Positions 3,001 through 59,593 of a DNA stretch of 64,000 nt are shown here, one piece after another (the first letter of the stretch is position 1; each line of letters starts with the position of its first letter). Position numbers and translations under genes: made by a program. The DNA is from Phycomyces nitens (lineage: Eukaryota; Mucoromycota; Mucoromycetes; Mucorales; Phycomycetaceae), in assembly GCA_022702545.1 (NCBI GenBank), contig JAHRBC010000002.1:5332001-5396000 (forward strand). The letters run 5' to 3'. Under the pieces are notes generated by a model that had not been told where the DNA came from, did not search any database, and saw only the letters and a list, made by a program, of their open reading frames with translations.

Positions 3001-5835
3001 ATGTTAAAAGTAACACTGGTTACTAGGGAACTTTAGGTTCATAAATCGTTGGATAATATACGCTTAAAGAGGGAGACTAAAATAACAAATCCCTTGCCGA
3101 TTTTGCTGTTGGCCCTGATAAAGCTGGACAAGTCTTGATACATGAGAATGTGGACCAAGGCTATTCTAGGGATATCTTTTGATGCGAAAAACGTCAATTA
3201 TTCTGAATAACAGGAAACTTCGGAAATGTGAAAGGGGTGCTGAGAAAAAAAGTCATGCGATTAATGATCCAATCGGGTAGAAAAGTAGATTTATGAGGGG
3301 CAAAGTATTCTATTGAGTTTAGATTTATTCATAGTTGAGGATCAAGGTCTGTACAGTTTTTCAAAATATTACCGCCTAGGACTGCATACTACGACATAAT
3401 TGGATGTGTATGTATCTATGGATTTCAGTTCGCCACAAGAGATATGCATGTATATAGCGTGGGATAGCTTTATTGCTCAAGATTAACTATAAATCAATCA
3501 AGTAAAGGCAGAGGTTATTATGGGCCAGGAAAGATGATCAGTGGATACCAAAATCCTGTGATGCCTAACAACCGATATTCAAAAGGCTTTATACACCTAA
3601 ACCCATAGCTAGACTCACACTATTCACTGAGCTGATAAGCGTAGATTATGTCAATACAATGTAAAAGGGTAGAATCCAGGCCAAGAGGATCTATATTTTA
3701 AGAAAGGTATCAAGTTTGATCTGGTATTCAAGCCACTTTACATGATGCACATGAATACAAGCGTCAGAGGATACCAATAGATATCTATACTAAAATAAGC
3801 AGTTGACTACACATGAATATATTCTCCTACATTTATTTTGTTTACCGGAAATAACAGAAATATAATATCGTTTGTCACTTTTTCAAAATGTATACCTCTT
3901 CTGAACCGTTAAATGTACGTAGATATTTATGGATATTATGATCTAGGGCTTGGATATGACCAAAGAATTGGTGTATATGAGAGATCAAGCGCCATGAATA
4001 TTTTATCAGTTCATGTGAGGTGTGGATATTAGAATATACCCAAAACTTAGCTGTCAGAGTACTGAGGTTTCTGGGAAGAATTAAAAGTGTATGATCATTT
4101 TTGAAAGACTGACACTGTAAAGAGGGTAAACTTGCAAACTAAAATTTATATGTCAACTAAAACTTTACGTGTCAATAGCACTGAGGATATTTATGTGTTG
4201 TATTGTAGTATGTATTAAATATAAAAAATAAATAAATCAAGAATTCGACGTCCAAATTAATTGGAATAAGACCATGTAGACAAAACCAAATTCTACCCCT
4301 AGCCGTATTATCATAACCTAGTTATTATCCGTGCTTAAATATAGCTCACCTGGATTTACATACAAAAAAAAAGTATATCTAGACAATCAAAAGCTTGTAA
4401 AAAATATTCAAATAAAATATATTTTGTGCATTTTACCGAATACTGTAAAGATGGTCAAAATAGATTGGTTCAAACTAACACTTGGGATCTATACTTTTAA
4501 TATTGAATTCCTCTGAAAAGTAGGTTATAGTTTTTTTGAATAGTATGTGCGCTTGTATCAAATCATTTGTTGATGACCCATCGATCAAAAACCGTGCAAA
4601 TATTATCCAAACAGACCTCATCGAGCACACGACTATTAGGGTCTGGTTTATACTATTGATCAGTCTCCTTGTCAACACTATATACCTATTGAGGTTGTAT
4701 TATAGAGTAATGATCCAAAATTTGGTTTTTATTAAAAACCTAATGAAATTTTCTAATGATTGAATACAAGTAATGTACTAGTTTGTTATCTTTTGAAAAC
4801 TGTTTCTGTTGGCATGCAATCATAGTTACAAACTATATGACTACAGGCTCCAGAATTGTGCGGGATGTATTTCCAAATAGATCAGTATCTCCTGTGCAGG
4901 AGGTCATAGTTCCAACCAACATCAATCTCTTATTTCGGTTCCTGGTGTTACACCAGATTCCTAAAAAAAATATCCCGGAAATAGTACAGCTATTGATAAT
5001 TTAAAGAAACCGTTGGATATACTCTTTTGTAGATCCTTAAATAAAGGCAGAGGTATTTATTACAATACCAAGCTCAAAAATGCTACATTCTATCAAAATA
5101 TATCTTAATTTATTTTTACTCTACAATATACCGCATCATACACATTTTACTCTCAAATTATCTTGGATAATCATTTTAAAAGTATTGAATCATCAAAAGG
5201 TTCAAGCCAAGTATAATCTTGCGCTTACTTTGAGAAACTGACTTTCTGCAGGAGAATTATTTGTGGTATTGATATCAAAATAAAGATCGAGTTTTATAAA
5301 GTATGAAAGATACTCAAGTCTTACTTTATAAATCTACAGACATTTATCATGTCATATTCTAGGAGCAAAGTATGACAATCAAAAGGATCCTTTTACAATA
5401 GTGCACATCTTTTGCACTTTTTTAAAAAAAGACATCTAAACTTTTACTGCTTGCTTATATAGAAAGCAATACCAAAAAGCATACTGATTCAATGATTGCA
5501 TGCTGCAACTTTTGTCTTTTTCTATCGATTTCGAGTGTGTTCCATTTCATTCTTTATGCTGAAGAGTATAGAGGTCAGTTTAGATTTTATTTAAGAATTA
5601 GACGTGCTTTCTTATCTATTATATAAGAATACCAAAAGACACTCAAAGTTTTGTAGTTAAATTTATAGAGAGCGCATTAAAGAGTAAGAAATGATATGCA
5701 ATGTGTGTACGACCGATATAATAATAATATTATTATTAAGGTATCAATCTCGAGGGGCTCCAATGGAGTATGGATTATAAAAGAACTAATAATAATACTA
5801 TATGACTACCTTCAAAACTTATATCAATCCAATAC

Positions 5836-5982: not shown

Positions 5983-8900
5983 ATGAGTTCTGGATCACTA
6001 GATCATCACGGTCTCGAATTCGATAGCAACTCCCTTACGGCCGCGCCTGAAACTATAAAAAACTATCAAGATTCTGTCTCGGGGAGCTATGGTGAAACAG
6101 AGGTCAATGAAGTCAGTATTGGAGGTAACTAAAATATTCCAACATTTAGTAAGCTTAAAGACAAAAATCCTATTCTTGTATTTCCATATCTTTTATAGGC
6201 GCCATTGGTGAATATAAAAGTCTAAAGGCCAAACTATCACTTATCGGCCGTAAACACGCCAGCATTAAAAAACTCGAAGAAGGTCCTATCATATCAGACG
6301 ATTTTAACCTTGATGAATTCTTGAAAGGTGTCTCCTCTGGCTCCTCTGAGGCCGGTCATACAAAAAAGCATATCGGTGTTGTCTGGAAAGATATAACTGT
6401 AAAGGTAAGCATACAATACAGAAATAATTTATAATCTATTCCATCTTAACATCCCAACATTATCTTAATTCATTTTTAAGGGTGTTGCTGCCGAAGCTCA
6501 TACCATCTCCACAGTTTTAAGCTTTCCAATAGCAGTGTTTAGCATGTGGAAACTCTTGTTTAAGGAGCAAGATGTTCCTCAAAAGGTTATTCTTCGCAAC
6601 AATACTGGTTTCTGTAAAGACGGTGAAATGCTGCTTATCCTTGGGCGTCCTGGTGCCGGCTGTACTACCCTTCTCAAGATAATCTCAAACATGCGTGGAT
6701 CTTACACAAGCGTTGAAGGCGATGTGTCATACGGAGGTATCGATCCCAAAACATTTGCCAAATACTACCGCGGTCAAGTATGTTACAACGAAGAAGAAGA
6801 TCAGCATTATCCAACTCTCACTGCAAAACAAACTCTTCAGTTTGCCTTGCGTACAAAGACTCCTGGATCCCGTCTTCCGGATGAAACCAGAAGAGACTTT
6901 GTAAACCGTGTTCTTTACATGCTCGGAAACATGCTTGGTTTGACAAAGCAGATGGACACCATGGTTGGAAATGCATTTGTCCGTGGTCTCTCTGGTGGCG
7001 AACGCAAACGTCTCTCAATTGCAGAACAAATGACAACAGCTAGTTCTATTAACTGTTGGGATTGCTCTACTCGTGGTCTCGATGCCGCTTCTGCCCTTGA
7101 CTTTGTCCGCTCTCTTCGTATCATGACCAATGTTCTTCACAAGACTACCATTGCAACACTCTACCAGGCATCCAACAGTATCTTTAATCTTTTTGACAAA
7201 ATTATCCTTCTTGACGATGGCTACTGCCTTTACTTTGGCCCTGTCGAACAAGCCAAGCCATACTTTGAAAAGCTGGGATTCTTTTGCCCTCCTCGCAAGT
7301 CTACTCCAGACTTCTTGACTGGAATCTGTAACCCGCTAGAGAGAGAGTTTCAACCTGGTTGCGAGAATACTGTTCCACAGTTTGCCCATGAGTTCCAAGA
7401 AATCTATTTGGCTTCCGATATACATAAATCCATGATAGCCGAATTAAATGAGTATGAAAGCAAATTCCAAGCTGACAACCATGCCGAGGTCTTTATGCAG
7501 GCAATGGATGAAGAGCATCAAAAGCATGCACCAGTAAAAAGTCCATTTATCGCATCATTTTACCAGCAAGTCAGAGCACTCTTGATCCGTCAATACTTTT
7601 TAGTAATCAAGGATAAAAGTGCATTATTTTCTCGTTATGCTACTGTTATTATTCAATCCCTTATTACAGCATCATGTTTCTACAACCTCCCTTTGAATGG
7701 AACCGGCGCCTTTACCCGTTGTGGTGCTCTTTTCTTTGCCATTATGTTCAATGCCTTTGTTTGTCAAAGCGAGCTTGTTCAATTCCTTATGGGTCGCCCT
7801 GTTCTAAAGAAGCATAAACAGTACGCTCTCTATCGACCTTCTGCATTCTATATTGCCCAGGTTATAATCGATATCCCATATGCTCTAGTTCAAAGTAAGC
7901 AAAGTTAATGTTCTTTTGGTTAAACATCACTGATCCATTTGTTTGTATGATAGCTCTACTCTATGCTGTTTGTTCCTACTTCATGTCTGGTTTTAATCTA
8001 ACAACTGTGAATTTTTTTACTTTCTTCATCATACTATTTTTCATCAATATGGCGATGAATGGGTTTTTCCGTATATTTGGTGCAATCACCCCCAATTTCT
8101 TCCTTGCGACCCAGCTTTCTAGCCTTACACTTGTTGGCCTCATTGCTTATCTTGGATTTAGTAAGTATTCAGGTATTTTCCAACTAATACTAATTTTGTT
8201 CTGTACTTGATAGCCCTTCCGTACTCCAAGATGCACCCCTGGCTTTACTGGATCTACTGGGCTAATCCCCTGGCTTATGGATACAAGGCTCTTTTGGTTA
8301 ATGAAATGAATGGCCAAGAATACTCGTGCGATGGTCCTGGAAATTCTGTTCCTTTTGGTCTTGGCTATGTAAACTGGGACTATAGAATTTGCACCATGAC
8401 TGGAGGTCAGCCAGGTGAGAGGTTTGTCAAGGGTGAATCTTATCTTCTTCAAGCCTTGGATTACAAGCCTTGGGAGGCCTGGGCTCCAGATTTTGTTGCT
8501 CTTGTTGGATTTTTTCTTCTTTTTACTGCTGCGTGTGCTTTTTCAATGGAATACCTTGATTCTGACAATGGAGGAAACACCACCAAGTTTTATCTTCCTG
8601 GAAAGGCCCCAAAGCATCGTACTGATGAGGAAGAAAATGAGCGTCGCAAGCGACTGGCCAAGATTACCGAAGAAATGGATGACATCTCTACGGGTACTAC
8701 TTTTTCATGGCAGAATGTCAATTATACTGTCCCTGTCAAGGGTGGCCACCTTCAGCTGCTCACTGGAATTAATGGTATTGTCAAACCTGGTCATCTTACT
8801 GCTCTTATGGGTTCTTCGGGTGCTGGAAAGACCACTCTATTGGATGTCCTCGCTCTCCGCAAGACTACCGGTGTTGTTACAGGAGATGTCTTTCTTAATG

Positions 8901-39199: not shown

Positions 39200-39978
39200 A
39201 TGAGCGTCCAACTCCTCAGTTCTGACAATGACTCCTTTACCGTTGACAAGGAAGTCGCTGAGCGCTCTGTGCTCATCAAGAATATGTTGGAAGGTAATTC
39301 AATACAGGAACTTTGCAGATTGACTAGAGATCCCTATTTTGTGTGTATGTTTTATTAGACATTGGAGAGAGAGATGCACCCATCCCTCTTCCCAACGTCA
39401 CCGCAAAGGTCTTGAAAAAGGTATGCAGACACCTTGTGCCTTTATTTAAAAATGAATAAGAAAGGTCTAACAACAATTATATATAAAAAGGTTATCGAAT
39501 GGTGTGAACATCATCGTGAGGACCCCGTCACTCAGGATGATCAAGAGAGACGCAACACTGACATTGAGGAGTGGGACCAGAAATACATGGAGGTTGACCA
39601 GGAGACCCTCTTTGATATCATTCTGGTGAGCCAAAGAATGAAACACACGCGTAAAGCGGAATATTGTGTACTGATTCTCTTATTATTCCATTCCATTCCA
39701 TCCTATTCCATCTACTTTGTAGGCCGCAAATTACCTCGATATCAAACCTCTTCTTGATGTCGGTTGCAAGACAGTTGCAAACATGATCAAGGGCAAGAGT
39801 GCCGAAGATATCAGAAAGACCTTTAACATCGTCAATGACTTTACACCCGAAGAAGCAGCCCAGATCAAGAAGGAGAACGTAAGCAGCCTTGAAGTAGTAC
39901 TAGTATGTTTGTTCAAGTGTGTGTGTTTAACATGGATTCTTGTTTTGATTGATTTAGGAATGGGCTGAGGATCGATAA
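39200..39978 (+). CDS. skp1: Skp1, SCF ubiquitin ligase adaptor
   Basis: Five exons: 39200-39293, 39359-39420, 39491-39625, 39723-39878, 39958-39978, giving 155 residues, close to the usual Skp1 length. The BTB/POZ half ([13 protein letters not shown] through V-I-E-W-C-E-H-H) contacts Cul1. The C-terminal Skp1 dimerisation domain ([15 protein letters not shown], then [15 protein letters not shown]) ends with the near-invariant [13 protein letters not shown], the F-box protein contact region. It acts in cytosol and nucleus as the bridge between Cul1 and F-box proteins. The last exon encodes only six residues plus stop, and the final intron falls inside the conserved tail, supporting the model. 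Confidence 0.97.
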
Positions 39979-40527
39979 AGTGGTATAAGTTGTAGGTTAC
40001 TCGAGCATGCCTTTGGGTTCTGTAGGACCAAACATGCAAGAGTGTCATTGTCGTTAGGGTTCTCTTCCTTTATAAATATACATATTATATATCAATCAAT
40101 CAAACCACAAACAAAGAGTTTCCTGTGTGTGTACCTTGTCTAAAGACCTTTTTTTGGAGAGAGAGGGGCTCATTTGTGTCTCGAATCATATGTGTGTGTG
40201 TGTGTGTGTGCACTGTGAAAAAATATGGAGGAATTTAAAGATGTCGGTTCAAATCAAAGGATTTTCAAAGCATCTCCAAGCCTAATGTATTATATTGATA
40301 TATATGTATATATCAAGCTTGACGGGCACTGTCTTGACCTGCTTTCCAAAACCCCCCCCCTTCGTTGCCCTGTACACTCTGTCAAAAACCACTTGTATTT
40401 ATTTATTTATATATATTTAACACACTAGACTAGAGTCCGGAGTGACTGTTCAATCTACGGACAAGAAAACAGTTGATTTTTTGATAATGCATGAATTTTT
40501 TAATACACTCAACTACCTGCCTCAATA
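39979..40527. other. intergenic region, Skp1 to WD40 gene
   Basis: Contains a GT dinucleotide run at about 40192-40210, a C tract near 40350-40361 and the presumed promoter of the downstream gene. No reading frame is supported. Confidence 0.45.
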
Positions 40528-43500
40528 ATGGTAGATGAACCATTGGAACAACCTGTCAATCATGTTCTCAAGCAATATGAATTGCTAGAGGTAGCTAGTC
40601 TGCCAAATTAGCCATCCATTAACTGCAAATGATAGATTACAGGATTACAAGACGCCTGTACAATCAAAATGACAAACACGACTCCTTGGGTAATTTCATG
40701 CCAAAGTCGAATTGATTAACAATGTTTCTTTACGATTGATTAGCGCATGAACCTCTGTGCTGCAAGTCAGGTTGACACTTGTATTTTCTATGTTGGTAAA
40801 TAGGTTTCTATCTTTTTTTTAAATATATATGTTCCAACTGTATTGACAAGCTCTTTATAGCAATGGATAGTTCTGTGTACGTCTATAGACGAAACTATCG
40901 TAAAGGCTCCTTGGGACAGCCTATCAAAAAAATCGAGACAAAGGGTGCAAGTTCTCAAGAGAGAGACCCAGTAAGGCTTCAAAATACAGAGGGGGGGTTT
41001 TTTTTGCAGACATTTAACAAGTGGGTGCCTCAAAAGGAATACACCATCAATTCAATAAAAGTCGGCCAACTGTTGGATAAGGAAGTGCTTGCGACAGTAG
41101 CTGAAAATGGCCATGTCAGTGTCTGGCTTACCGAGGACCTGGACAAGGACCCACTGGTACTCCAGTAAGTTATCACGACAATTGACACGTATAAACCAAT
41201 CCACACCTCGTTCTAGACATGAAGTGGCCTCGACATGGGGGCTGGCTATACACCGAGATGGTCTTTTGGCCGTGGCCACAAACAACAAGAAGATTACAGT
41301 GTTTAATGTCCTGCAGTTGACAAAGTCTACCAGGATGTTTGAGGACAAGGATCAAAAGAGAGAACGAAGAAACGTCCTCAAGGAAAAGGAGTCTATTGAT
41401 CTTATTGGCCATGAGCACAATATACCCACCATTGATTTTAGTGATTCAGGAAAATACATCGCAAGCTGTTCTATTGATCGCTCATGTAGAATCTGGGATC
41501 TCGCTAAAGAAAAGACCATTGCCAAACGCAAGACTCCTATTACTTTACCCGAAAGTCTCTCTTGGTAAGACAAATTATTCCAGGATACCCATCAATTGGA
41601 TTCTATTCACCCACCCATTAATGCCCAACATAAACCAAAAAAAAAAGGGGCTGGTGTGTCAAGTTTATTCCCAAAGGCAACTTCAAACACATAGTATGCG
41701 ATAATGCAGAGATCTGTCAGACAGTTCGCCAAAAGATCTTGAAAGGACGGTCTGTTCACCTGTCTTCGCTTGGAATGAGACACTCGGCCGCATTACCAGT
41801 ATACCGCTTCAATGCGGCTGGGCTAGAGTCTGATTTGGAAGGGTAGGGTATTCGGTTGATCAAGTTTTTTGTTTTTGTTTTTTTGCTCTGAAATCCGGGT
41901 CCAGAGTATTCACGTCAAATGCGCCTTTTAGTGATGATGAACCACTTTTTACAGGATCGGATTATATGCTAGATTATGACCCGGATGATATTTATGATCA
42001 TGGTACGTATACGTATTAAACAAAACAGACGATGAATAAACCGTTTATTCCTAACAACAACAACAAACCCTCCTATGCTTTGGGGTATATAACACAGACC
42101 CAGAGAACGGTGAGTTGAATGGGGAGGGTGTCTAGTCTGCATAAAAACCTAATGATTATCACCCACAAAGACTTTGATAACCAGTTTTGGCCAGATCATG
42201 AAGAACTGCTAGATGGTAAAGTATAAAAAAAGTGCTGATTTGGTATAATAAGCTTATAGTAATAATAATATATACAAATATATATCTATTTGTATGACTC
42301 TCGACCTGTTCAGAGCCTGAATACTTGCCACAAGGTAACAAATATTGATGGTTTGCATACAAGAAACTTATACCCAAATGTTTAAATGATCCAACATGGC
42401 CAGAGTCTGGCGATTTACAAGGCTGTAAGGATACTGATGGTTTGGTTACAAGAGACTTATACCAAAGTGTTTAGATGATCATACATGGCAAGGAAGTGAT
42501 GGTGGGCCAGATGGTAACAATATTAATTATTTGAATACAAGAGACTTATACCAAATTGTTAGATGATCCGACATGGCAGGGAGATGATGGTGGGCCAGAT
42601 GGTAATGATACTAATTGGTTGACTACAAGAGACTTATACCAAATTGGTTAGATGATCCGACATGGCAAGGAGATGATGGTGGGCCAGATGGTAACAATAT
42701 TGATTCTTTGAATACAAGAGACTTATACCAAATGGTTAGATGATCCAACATGGCAGGGAGATGATGGTGGGCCAGATGGTAATGGTACTAATTGGTTGAC
42801 TACAAGAGACTTATACCAAATGGTTAGATGATTCGACATGGCAAGGAGATGATGATGGGCCAGATGGTAACAATATTGATGATTTGAATACAAGAGACTT
42901 ATACCAGATGGTTAGATGATCCAACATGGGGAGAGTCTGACGTTATATCAGGCTGTAAGGATACTAATGGTTTGGCTACAAGAGACTTAATACCAAATGT
43001 TTAGTTGATCCGACATGGCAAGGATATGATAGTGACCCAGATGGTAACAATAATAATTGGCTTGAATACAAGATACTTATACCAAATGTTTAGATGATCC
43101 AATATGGCAAGGAAGTGATGGTGGTCCAGATGGTAACAATAATGATTGGCTTGAATACAAGAGACTTATACCAAATGGTTAGATGATCCAATATGGCGAT
43201 ATTATGGTGCTGGTGGTGTAGGTCCAGATGGTAACAATATTAATTGGCTTGAATACAAGAAACTTATACCAAATGTTTAGCTGATCCAACATGGCCAGAG
43301 TCTGACAGCCCACCATCTGGTAATGATACTAAATGGCTTGAATACAAGAGACTTATACCAAGCTCTCTTTTTTTAAAGAGGATCCAACATGGCCAGAGTC
43401 TAACAATCCACCAGATGGTAAAGATACTGGATTGGTTTAATACAAGATACTTAAACAAAAAGTGCCTAGATGATCCAACATGGCAATATTCTAATGCAGC

Positions 43501-44825
43501 ACCCGATGGTAAGGTATTTGGGAAACCAATAAAGAGACTAAAGATTTTCAAGATGGCTGGCCAGCCTCTCCAGATCATCATCAGATTGCTGAATGGAATA
43601 TCGAAAACCAATCCATGGGCCCACCCAGTGAGACTTCAGGAGGAGTGCCGCTTGTCTCATACACTGATGACCATAGTATTGGGTCCGAGTATGACCTTGA
43701 CCCAACCCTTCAACGCCCAGAGCAAATGCCTTTAGGATTCTCTGACTGGGGAGATACCGATAGATCAAGTGTAGCAAGTGAATATACGCCCAACAATTTG
43801 AATTGGGAACAACCTCAGTCGCGTACATTCCGTCAAACTGATTCAGACAACCTGGTTTATCAAGAGTATCGGCGGATGAGAAACAGAACCCTGGGCGCAA
43901 TTCGATCCACACAAGGCGAAAGTAGCGAAACCAATATAGACTCTAATGATGAAAGAGTGTCCCCAACCCAAGAACCATTACGGCTTTTGGAACAACTCTT
44001 TCGACAATCGGATATGGAGGATACAAACACCCCAAGACCCGCAGAAGATGGAGATACCTCCCTGTCCAATCCATGGAATGAAGAAACGAGTGGAATTGTT
44101 ACTGGACCAGATGTGGATAACATATTTCGATCTGGATTAATCAATAGTGAAAATATCCGTATCCAAGAGATATTGGATATAGCCTTTGGGAGCCATATGA
44201 CCCGACGGAACGCACAACTCCATGACAGATTATTTCATAGCAGTACAGGAGGAAACTGGGACAATAATTATTCACCCGAGGCACTGCAGAACCTCCAAGA
44301 GGATAGTGAAAGTGAAAGTGAAGAAGAGGCCAGCATAGACCATGAGATATCTGATCGCCGTGTTCCAAATGTCGTACGCTCTACCAACCCAACTCGATCA
44401 GACACCACTAGAGGATTGGTTGGGAAACAAAAGAGACGGGAAATTGGAGAATATCTTGTGTTTACTACAGCCAAGGATGTCTACCTCTTGAACCCAACCA
44501 GGCCGCGCATAACTACCATCAGAGTTGAGCACGAGGCGATTGCAAAAATTGATGTGCGGTCAGATAGGATGCTGCAGGCCATGGATAGAATAAATATGGT
44601 GGAATGGATCCCTGAGATTGAGCTCTTGGTAGTAGCAAGCCAAAAGGGTGTAGTCGCATTGACTCGTGTATTACAAGTTGAATTAGACGATGGACGCCAG
44701 ACTTGTCTTTTTAACAACGAATGCTATCTCCCACTCGATGGACTTCAACCCAACCCGCTCTATGGTAATTAGACAAATATATATATATATAGATGCTTGA
44801 TTGCTTGTATTGATCATCTTGTATA

Positions 44826-44866
<41 letters not shown>

Positions 44867-45013
44867 GTAGGAATGACTGTCCAGCGGATAGTCCAGGATC
44901 ATATAGCGTCGCCTATATTCCACCTGTATCTCTTTTACTACGACGGCACGGTCCTTGGCTATAAGCTATCTCGCAACAAGACTGTAGTTGATGTCAATTC
45001 ATTTATTGTTTAA
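40528..45013 (+). CDS. WD40-repeat protein with mini-exon repeat array (Crt10-like, provisional)
   Basis: I reconstruct 25 exons and 1020 residues: 40528-40590, 40636-40689, 40744-40795, 40861-41164, 41217-41564, 41648-41842, 41905-42002, 42098-42109, 42171-42215, 42314-42334, thirteen mini-exons (42386-43508, listed in the array entry), 43553-44764 and 44871-45013. The N-terminal half folds as WD40 blades, clearest at about residues 220-250 (G-H-E-H-N-I-P-T-I-D-F-S, then S-I-D-R-S-C-R-I-W-D-L). Residues about 398-569 are acidic repeats D-D-P-T-W-Q-G-D-D-G-G-P-D from the mini-exons. The large exon 24 is acidic and disordered, then returns to a blade-like end (F-H-L-Y-L-F-Y-Y-D-G-T-V-L-G-Y). 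The layout resembles the fungal Crt10 family (regulator of ribonucleotide reductase genes), but I am not certain. The last intron carries a TCTA microsatellite. All frames join without a break. Confidence 0.75.
42335..43552 (+). repeat. tandem array of 13 exon-plus-intron units
   Basis: Mini-exons: A 42386-42424, B 42475-42513, C 42563-42601, D 42652-42690, E 42740-42778, F 42828-42866, G 42916-42954, H 43005-43043, I 43094-43132, J 43183-43230, K 43281-43319, L 43379-43417, M 43470-43508. All are 39 nt except J (48), and all start and end in phase 1. The introns between them are 49-50 nt (59, 52 and 44 at the 3' end), begin GTAAC, GTAAT, GTAAG or GTAAA, share ACAAGAGACTTATACCAAAT in the middle and end in TTAG (the acceptors before L and M differ; unit A lacks an AG). 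Reading through an intron shifts frame or meets the stop formed across TTAGATGATCC, so the introns must be removed. Confidence 0.88.
44825..44867. repeat. TCTA tetranucleotide microsatellite in the last intron of the WD40 gene
   Basis: About ten copies of ATCT/TCTA occupy the 3' part of the intron 44765-44870 and serve as its pyrimidine-rich stretch before the acceptor CTGTAG. Length variation here could alter splicing of the last exon. Confidence 0.9.
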
Positions 45014-56989: not shown

Positions 56990-57335
56990 ATATATTCCAT
57001 TGTATTTTAACAATCATAAACTGTCAAATGAAGCGTGTTGGTCCATGGCCTTGCCTAGTTATAATCAAGACAAAAACCGTTTACATGTTCCAAGACTTTA
57101 GTAATCTCATCCGGATCGACTTGTTGAACATTCGGTAACCCATACCATTTGTTTACACTATATTTGAACTTGAGCTGGCAAAAGAGATACCCAAGGAATT
57201 GGTGGTTTAACCAATACTGAGCTCTCGTATAAATGTAAATATATAATATTCCCTGCGGTAAGAACGAAAAACTGGAATCCCAAAACTTTATAAACAAGAC
57301 TCTCTTTTTGTTCCTAATATTCTGCTGCTGCTGGT
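56990..57335 (-). repeat. dispersed repeat, copy 1 (inverted relative to copy 2)
   Basis: Read on the minus strand this segment aligns with 61632-61985 on the plus strand. Shared blocks include GCAGCAGAATATTAGG, TACATTTATACGAGAG, CAGTATTGGTTAAACCACC and AAATGGTATGGG. Identity is perhaps 75% overall, with indels. Neither copy has an intact long frame. The minus-strand frame 57297-57055 resembles a frame of the other copy (N-K-W-Y-G-L-P-N-V-Q-Q against D-K-W-Y-G-L-L-N-V-Q-Q), so the source could have been coding. Confidence 0.8.
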
Positions 57336-57340
57336 GTTTT

Positions 57341-57428
57341 TGTTGTTTCTGTTGTTTCTGTTGTTTCTGTTGTTTCTGTTGTTTCTGTTGTTTCTGTTGT
57401 TTCTGTTGTTTCTGTTGTTTCTGTTGCT
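57341..57428. repeat. 9-bp minisatellite, about ten copies
   Basis: The unit TGTTGTTTC is repeated nearly perfectly about ten times, then degenerates to GTT/TTG triplets up to 57468. On the minus strand it reads as N-N-R repeats in a frame of 63 codons, a by-product of the unit length and not a gene in itself. Confidence 0.95.
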
Positions 57429-58639
57429 GTTGTTGTAGTTGTTGTAGTTGTTGCTGTTGTTGTTGTCAATGGTATTCAAGGGAATCCAGTATATTGCACC
57501 AAGTAAGCCGAAATAATAAATCTACTCTTGGGTATTCTAAACGATCGTGATTGATGGATCCCTTTACTAGTCCGCAAAGGTAAAGAATGTTTGTGGATTT
57601 CTGCAAGTATTTGTAATATAATTTTTACAGTATACTGGGATACAGTATCCAATACATATTTTGTAAATACATTAATGATTTACAAGTTGGTCAAGATGGA
57701 ATCCTTGCAATATGATTGTTACCAAAAAGAAAGAAAGAAAGAGCCAAAAGTTTACAAGGAAAACATATTAGACGTGTTTGATTTCTTGACTTTATGGAGA
57801 CATGTTTATTCTAAACAGAATCTCTAGATATAAAAGCGAATTGATATTAGAGCACAGGGTGACTTTGGTTGGTTGTGAGATTTGTATAAATCAAGATAGA
57901 TATTGAAAGGATAAAGATGGCATGAATGGCCAATGGTACATTTAATACTCTGACAAGCTATTAAAAGTATAAAAAAGGATATCATATGTAGAATTATCAA
58001 GAGATTCTCATTCATTGATTTCTCGATTGCTGTTCAGGACTAGGTTCAGGTTGGATTTAGAATAAATGTAAAATGCTCAAGGGCATACAGGGCCAAAAAG
58101 GGAGAGAGAAAGAAAAAGAAAATAACCAAGTTGATGGATGGTGAATGATTGATCATCACTGACTTTTCTACACATCACTTTATACAACAAGAGACTTCCA
58201 TGCCACACAGGATAGTTTTCAGCAGATTATCAAGGTTGGGCATTTCTTGTGGCCGTCAGTTGGCCAATGTGAGAATGTGAGGTCGCCCTAGATATTGCCG
58301 ATAATAAGCAAAAGATAATCAATTGTGAATATATATATATATATATATATATTGGTTATTAATGTCAAGATGGCCTTGATTTGTTTGCAGTAGACCTTGG
58401 CCAATATCTGGCCACTTGAACGACACTTTGGTATGTATCATCAAATATAAACATAATAATAAAATACCCAACTCAAAAATAGGTTTATACAAATATTTTC
58501 AAAATTCAGAATGACAAGGTGAGACAGAGGATTATAGTGTGGGATTCCGAATGTCTTGGATATCAAAAAGACTGTTTTTATGAGTCTGTTATCATCATCT
58601 CACTAGGGTTTGACTAGAGCGCACCCATGAAAGAGGGTA

Positions 58640-59508: not shown

Positions 59509-59593
<85 letters not shown>
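59509..59593. repeat. long ATT microsatellite
   Basis: About 28 uninterrupted copies of ATT on the plus strand, the longest simple repeat in the window. The leucine-rich frame that crosses it (59449-59673) is an artefact of TTA codons. Confidence 0.95.

Follow-up and report, generated by a model that had tools for sequence, protein, structure and literature searches.

A gene of the CRT10/WD40 family in the fungus Phycomyces nitens carries, within a window of 64,000 nucleotides (the whole stretch of DNA analysed here), a tandem array in which an exon-like block is repeated 13 times together with the intron-like block that comes after it. The array is real and unusual. With a probability of about two thirds, we consider that a symmetric exon-intron module was multiplied head-to-tail, likely by unequal exchange, and that its copies are spliced mostly constitutively into an acidic, disordered, tryptophan-bearing loop of the CRT10/WD40 protein. 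Arrays of this kind are known from silk genes, and neutrality of the reading frame achieved through splicing would be the point that the fungal gene adds.

If this reading is true, a repeat that would otherwise wreck the frame can persist in a gene, with splicing taking out the portion whose length is not divisible by three. The gene would further represent a compact fungal counterpart of silk-gene architecture in which exchange driven by repeated introns becomes testable, and it would carry a warning for annotation, as runs of 39-nt exons may escape gene finders. A more far-reaching proposal, which we offer tentatively and think somewhat more probably wrong than right, is that the array acts as a splice-buffered coding minisatellite: recombination between similar introns would change the number of acidic tryptophan repeats of the WD40 protein, to any extent and free of frameshifts, the number would vary among strains and perhaps among transcripts as a tunable trait, and the gene would be the first such case in fungi and the second, independent one with alternating introns.

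Architecture of the array

A unit is defined here as an exon block plus the intron that comes after. Across positions 42386-43552 the exon-like block measures 39 nt in 12 of the 13 units and 48 nt in the other, the introns span 44-59 nt (49-52 nt in 11 of 13; Table 1), and all units are of phase 1-1, with exon and intron blocks repeating in register. Exon blocks differ in length only by 9 nt, introns by single bases in two places. TRF placed the array at 42327-43361, with a period of 89 and 11.6 copies or, alternatively, a period of 177 and 5.8 copies. The block formed by the acceptor and the exon start (family D5) occurs in 13 copies, whose 12 spacings range from 88 to 98 nt and are never a multiple of three. 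A 21-nt intron core is common to 12 of the 13 introns, the 44-nt intron of unit 13 being the one without it; because this core matches 12 times within the window, where shuffled sequence gives an expectation of 0.02, the array is not a product of chance. The number of units may include an assembly error.

The preliminary description of a 13-fold exon-plus-intron repeat inside a WD40 gene is thus borne out by TRF, by the 13 blocks and by the Pfam WD40 match reported below, and the phase 1-1 symmetry that it gave the mini-exons is right. Its sizes of 39 or 48 nt for exons and 44-59 nt for introns also hold, except at unit 1, whose in-register acceptor position (42382-42385) reads TTAA and not AG, which makes a 21-nt exon the likelier one there. 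The CAG at 42401-42403, which lies 18 nt inside the block, contains the first AG past the CTTAT word before this unit, and the 21-nt reading stays in frame. Farther upstream, the degenerate unit is entered at a CAG equivalent to that proposed for unit 1.

Table 1. Predicted features of the host gene and its array (window positions)
Feature	Position	Strand	Size and remarks	Intron that follows	Intron length (nt)
CRT10/WD40-family gene	40528..45013	+	predicted 26 exons, 3006 nt, 1001 aa		
Upstream small exon	42098..42109	+	12 nt, phase 1-1; predicted (gene model)		
Upstream small exon	42171..42215	+	45 nt, phase 1-1; 3' part unit-like (family D6)		
Upstream degenerate unit	42314..42334	+	21-nt exon (family D6, gene model)		
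Unit 1 exon	42404..42424	+	predicted 21 nt; in-register 39-nt block 42386-42424		50
Unit 2 exon	42475..42513	+	39 nt	42514-42562	49
Unit 3 exon	42563..42601	+	39 nt	42602-42651	50
Unit 4 exon	42652..42690	+	39 nt	42691-42739	49
Unit 5 exon	42740..42778	+	39 nt	42779-42827	49
Unit 6 exon	42828..42866	+	39 nt	42867-42915	49
Unit 7 exon	42916..42954	+	39 nt	42955-43004	50
Unit 8 exon	43005..43043	+	39 nt	43044-43093	50
Unit 9 exon	43094..43132	+	39 nt	43133-43182	50
Unit 10 exon	43183..43230	+	48 nt	43231-43280	50
Unit 11 exon	43281..43319	+	39 nt	43320-43378	59
Unit 12 exon	43379..43417	+	39 nt	43418-43469	52
Unit 13 exon	43470..43508	+	39 nt; intron without shared core	43509-43552	44
Long exon 3' of array	43553..44764	+	from spliced model, Pfam and orthologue comparison		

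The host gene

In budding yeast, CRT10 has a role in the expression of ribonucleotide reductase genes. The product of the P. nitens gene reaches 46.6 bits with the Pfam CRT10 family (PF08728; curated cut-off 23.6), the best stretch being residues 789-987, and 35 bits with Pfam WD40 (cut-off 27); its best protein relatives come from Mucor and Radiomyces. The long exon 3' of the array begins by coding a further D-G-W stretch and ends by coding the conserved C-terminal part. The spliced model closes in frame with one terminal stop, and its introns outside the array measure 39-106 nt. The 25 exons and 3063 nt of the preliminary description equal our 3006 nt plus 18 nt (unit 1 read as 39 nt) plus 39 nt (40971-41009 read as exon). 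The latter segment, a putative 39-nt intron, holds no in-frame stop and could be an exon, so that the intron call is uncertain.

In the 49-Mb genome (11 contigs), the first 326 residues of the product had eight matches, five of which are the gene's own exons (23.5-249 bits). The other three lie elsewhere and are all weak (22.9-25.8 bits), and we therefore call the gene single-copy. The complete array is likewise present once in the genome.

Splice signals and the case for mostly constitutive splicing

Donor GT is present in all 13 units and the in-register acceptor AG in 12 of them. Among the 12 core-type introns, nine carry a CTTAT word, possibly a branch word, 15-16 nt before the acceptor, and one more carries it at 24 nt. 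If any single intron of units 1-10 were retained, the reading frame would meet a stop at nt 48-51 from the intron start, and at nt 21 if it were the unit 12 intron; a retained intron of unit 11 or 13 meets none early, the stop lying far downstream (nt 318 and 225, respectively), which we count against the main reading. Most array introns within 42425-43280 are open to their end in the upstream frame, and the in-frame stop of the six 50-nt introns is the acceptor TAG itself. The openness of these introns is perhaps a trace of an origin from coding sequence.

Mostly constitutive splicing must be weighed against regulated skipping, in which varying subsets of the symmetric mini-exons would be left out and one gene would yield many linker lengths, as the preliminary description suggested with its range of zero to 13 units. 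We regard this as unlikely. In its favour, any subset of units joins in frame, every unit being of phase 1-1, and the array donors fall slightly below the others of the gene in their match to CAG/GTAAGT (mean 5.15 of 9 for 13 array donors vs 5.92 of 9 for 12 others), which we count against mostly constitutive splicing into protein. The acceptor already lost at unit 1 also fits skipping and is counted against our main reading. Symmetry, however, is the outcome of copying one symmetric unit and not a sign of regulation. At introns of about 50 nt the nearest splice sites tend to pair, and the array introns, being of about this length, favour such pairing. No regulatory structure was found, the array folding no better than its shuffles (42386-43280, z -0.39; matched or bettered by 7 of 20 shuffles). 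Finally, exon skipping is described as comparatively low in fungi (PMC6142364) and, in fission yeast, as rare (~0.24%), stochastic and degraded (PMC4448684); as far as the cited passages go, this speaks against skipping and leads us to rank mostly constitutive splicing above a combinatorial scheme.

Two other readings of the region were rejected. A structural RNA was set aside on the folding result just given and because comparison of 41800-43800 with Rfam, at E values of up to 1, gave no match; eight of the 12 core-type introns, folded one by one, gave z from -1.83 to 0.78. An unspliced or opposite-strand reading was also discarded, as none of the nine ORFs of at least 40 aa overlapping 42003-43552 runs through the array.

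Proposed inclusion of the array in the protein

Across the 13 exon blocks the used frame contains no stop, and the other two frames contain 1 and 26. Such an open frame is only mildly unusual, since 247 of 4000 runs of a random-substitution trial (12 units of 39 nt, with shared changes counted apart) were equally free of stops. Departures at codon positions 1, 2 and 3 were 0.135, 0.237 and 0.173, without the third-position excess that would have been a sign of purifying selection on the array peptide. Closure of the model in frame, which the preliminary description took as strong internal support, was confirmed as a fact and lends weak support to inclusion, because symmetric units close at any number; nor can closure demonstrate that the blocks are included, since an in-frame junction of exon 8 (41905-42002) with exon 25 (from 43553) is possible as well.

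This last junction agrees with a second alternative, that the array is a minisatellite within one long intron (42003-43552) and that exon 8 is joined straight to exon 25. The absence of a selection signature in the blocks and of the repeat from orthologue proteins (see below) would agree with such an arrangement. It would, however, require an intron of 1550 nt, far outside the size range of the model's other introns beyond the array, and it would leave aside the preservation, across the array, of splice-site letters, of exon length modulo three and of the word that may mark the branch site, as well as an encoded peptide that is acidic and tryptophan-bearing, as are the linkers of orthologues. 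On this evidence we hold the long intron to be improbable.

Divergence, order and multiplication of the units

When units 1-12 are compared in pairs, introns differ on average by 0.168 (a mean identity of ~83%) and exons by 0.284, and in 57 of the 66 pairs it is the introns that are more alike. For units 2-6, 8 and 9, the seven of X type, the values are 0.117 for introns and 0.123 for exons, and introns are closer in 14 of 21 pairs. The earlier claim that exon and intron parts are equally conserved thus applies to the X-type units and fails over units 1-12. Departures from the column majority are distributed unevenly: in exons they amount to 0.072 over the first 15 bases and 0.25 over the other 24, and in introns to 0.170 in the 5' part, 0.048 in the core (the least variable stretch) and 0.119 at the 3' end.

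The greater likeness of the introns and the uniformity of their core might suggest that introns were added singly, in the manner of introners, to an exonic tandem repeat, which we judge highly improbable: introners are dispersed across many genes as near-identical introns, which the array introns are not, 12 of the 15 matches to the intron core in the 49-Mb genome fall inside the array, the three outside have three mismatches each (vs six matches for a reversed control), and the uniformity of the core is nearly equalled by that of the first 15 exon bases, exon and intron keeping register. The in-register blocks and the confinement of the core support duplication of whole modules, as the preliminary description had proposed, and the single copy of the gene together with the non-dispersed core supports our main reading.

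Whole-unit identity reaches 97% between units 3 and 5, 94% between 4 and 6, 92% between 2 and 4 and 88% between 1 and 7. The introns of units 2, 4 and 6 form one type (0.06-0.08 apart) and those of units 3 and 5 another (0.02), the two types being 0.14-0.20 apart. Introns 1 and 7 are alike (0.14); intron 7 is nearer the 3/5 type (0.20 vs 0.27), and intron 1 is about equidistant from both. Over introns 1-7 the mean difference at lag 2 is 0.085 vs 0.173 at lag 1; of 5040 possible orders, 92 give a contrast at least this strong, and for introns 2-6 the next-but-one contrast is reached by 8 of 120 orders. Among introns 8-12 it is absent (84 of 120 orders), and alternation of the exons is less clear (2476 of 5040 orders for units 1-7; 18 of 120 for units 2-6). 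These relationships fit a stepwise exchange of monomers and dimers, a mechanism that we infer from unit likeness. The 177-nt dimer period, the stepwise likeness of units and the degenerate units upstream all support the main reading.

Under the mechanism that we propose, a whole symmetric exon-intron module would have been copied head-to-tail by unequal exchange, the similar introns offering homology for mispairing. Removal of the introns by splicing would leave only exon blocks that are multiples of three and of phase 1-1. As the spacings are never a multiple of three, an added unit would shift the frame if it were unspliced; with the intron removed, one unit more or fewer would alter the protein by about 13 residues only. 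That a unit would be frame-neutral only through splicing is the strongest new point. The array itself, its phase and splice-site letters, the kinship of its units, the single copy of the gene and the acidity of orthologue linkers can be read from sequence, whereas splicing, translation and unequal exchange at this array are inferred.

The linker and its orthologues

The array would encode part of an acidic linker that orthologues have as well. In 29 Mucorales-type protein rows the linker is 130-497 aa long, with 20-33% D+E and 2-9 W, and is acidic in every one; that of the P. nitens protein has 532 aa and 19 W. The CRT10-family proteins of Mucorales, such as P0001 of Mucor circinelloides, therefore resemble the P. 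nitens protein in family and in bearing an acidic linker at the same place, and differ in that the DDPTW-type repeat, sought also as the motif D-P-[TIS]-W, is absent from all 39 orthologue rows compared. Protein searches for an orthologue with the array found none: in one, the 7994 candidates sharing most words were scored, another used residues 560-960 alone, and a further one was likewise negative. An occurrence of the array in related species, which the preliminary description suggested looking for, was thus not met with in protein sequences. A conserved acidic-tryptophan binding motif was considered and rejected: the 29 rows hold 69 W in acidic context, within the shuffled range (mean 61.9, largest 76), so that composition is all that the linkers have in common.

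In an AlphaFold2 model of P0001 (42 sequences), most of the stretch 303-528 scores below pLDDT 50, a helix spans 332-362, and strands flank the stretch on both sides. The acidic linker of the Mucor orthologue is accordingly predicted to be disordered, and the loop encoded by the array would, judging by this model, be placed in the WD40 propeller. Foldseek with the same model retrieved WD40 proteins; of the 50 matches listed, none exceeded a query TM-score of 0.36.

Other repeats were noticed by eye in this linker of further proteins. That of P0029 (Apophysomyces) has E-A-A-H-L-A-E-L-E-R-Q-E-like repeats whose sequence is unrelated to the array, and those of P0043 (Rhizophagus clarus) and P0045 (Funneliformis geosporum) have Y-S-P-T-S-P-like repeats, which we take to resemble the RNA polymerase II tail. 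On account of these repeats, the loop seems to tolerate repetition.

Comparison with known systems

The closest counterparts are spider silk genes. The flagelliform and Argiope MaSp2 genes are built of iterated exons and introns, two intron types alternate in some MaSp2 genes, and repeated introns have been proposed to channel unequal crossing over; in the passages cited, the authors know of no further eukaryotic example of such alternation (PMC9779670; PMC1885213). The mechanism proposed for Argiope MaSp2 provides a precedent for our main reading. As in silk genes, to the extent that these sources describe them, the units stand head-to-tail in one gene, with homologous exons and homologous introns in register (here 13 exon blocks, and the core in 12 of 13 introns). 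The order of array introns 2-6 may resemble the alternation of types in MaSp2. Introns are homogenised within silk genes, and those of Argiope MaSp2 are reported as 94.3-99.7% alike (PMC9779670), a near-identity that the array introns do not show. The fungal array further differs in its 39-nt exon, in its WD40 host gene and in belonging to a fungus, and we do not claim common descent.

Schistosome micro-exon genes, which encode secreted products and give exon-skipping isoforms, likewise consist of long series of very small symmetric exons; unlike them, the array repeats a single exon, and its introns are copies too. Within fungi, SP7-like effectors of arbuscular mycorrhizal species, relatives of P. 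nitens, share with the array the presence of tandem repeats; theirs are hydrophilic and variable in number, and a conserved intron lies ahead of the first one (PMC11333574). We rejected them as a fungal precedent, since they are secreted effectors and one exon plus intron per repeat is not described in the parts of that source considered (PMC11333574). No fungal gene with iterated exon-intron modules was found in the open-licence literature. The earlier statement that no fungal example has been described therefore stands within that literature, and the novelty that it implied is reduced by the silk genes, as far as the cited accounts of these extend. A potato study (PMC4974935) reportedly deals with introns gained through tandem duplication, which may point to the origin of the array's first intron.

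Other repeats and neighbouring features

When TRF was applied to the window and to 20 stretches, each of 10 kb, taken from contig C1, no unit of at least 60 nt in at least five copies was found besides the array; three other places, in stretches L025 and L029, had a period of at least 30 and at least 2.5 copies. L029 contains a 31-nt tandem repeat of 8.0 copies (6294-6537, contig C1) and a 2.5-copy relative of it at 3047-3121, seemingly on the opposite strand. Within the window, TRF reported an array at 57320-57461, with a 9-nt unit, TTCTGTTGT, in 11.9 copies at 57320-57426 and also a 27-nt period, and a perfect TTA repeat of 28.3 copies lies at 59509-59593. The host gene is adjoined by an intron-bearing gene at 39201-39979, which we presume from its reading to be Skp1-like.
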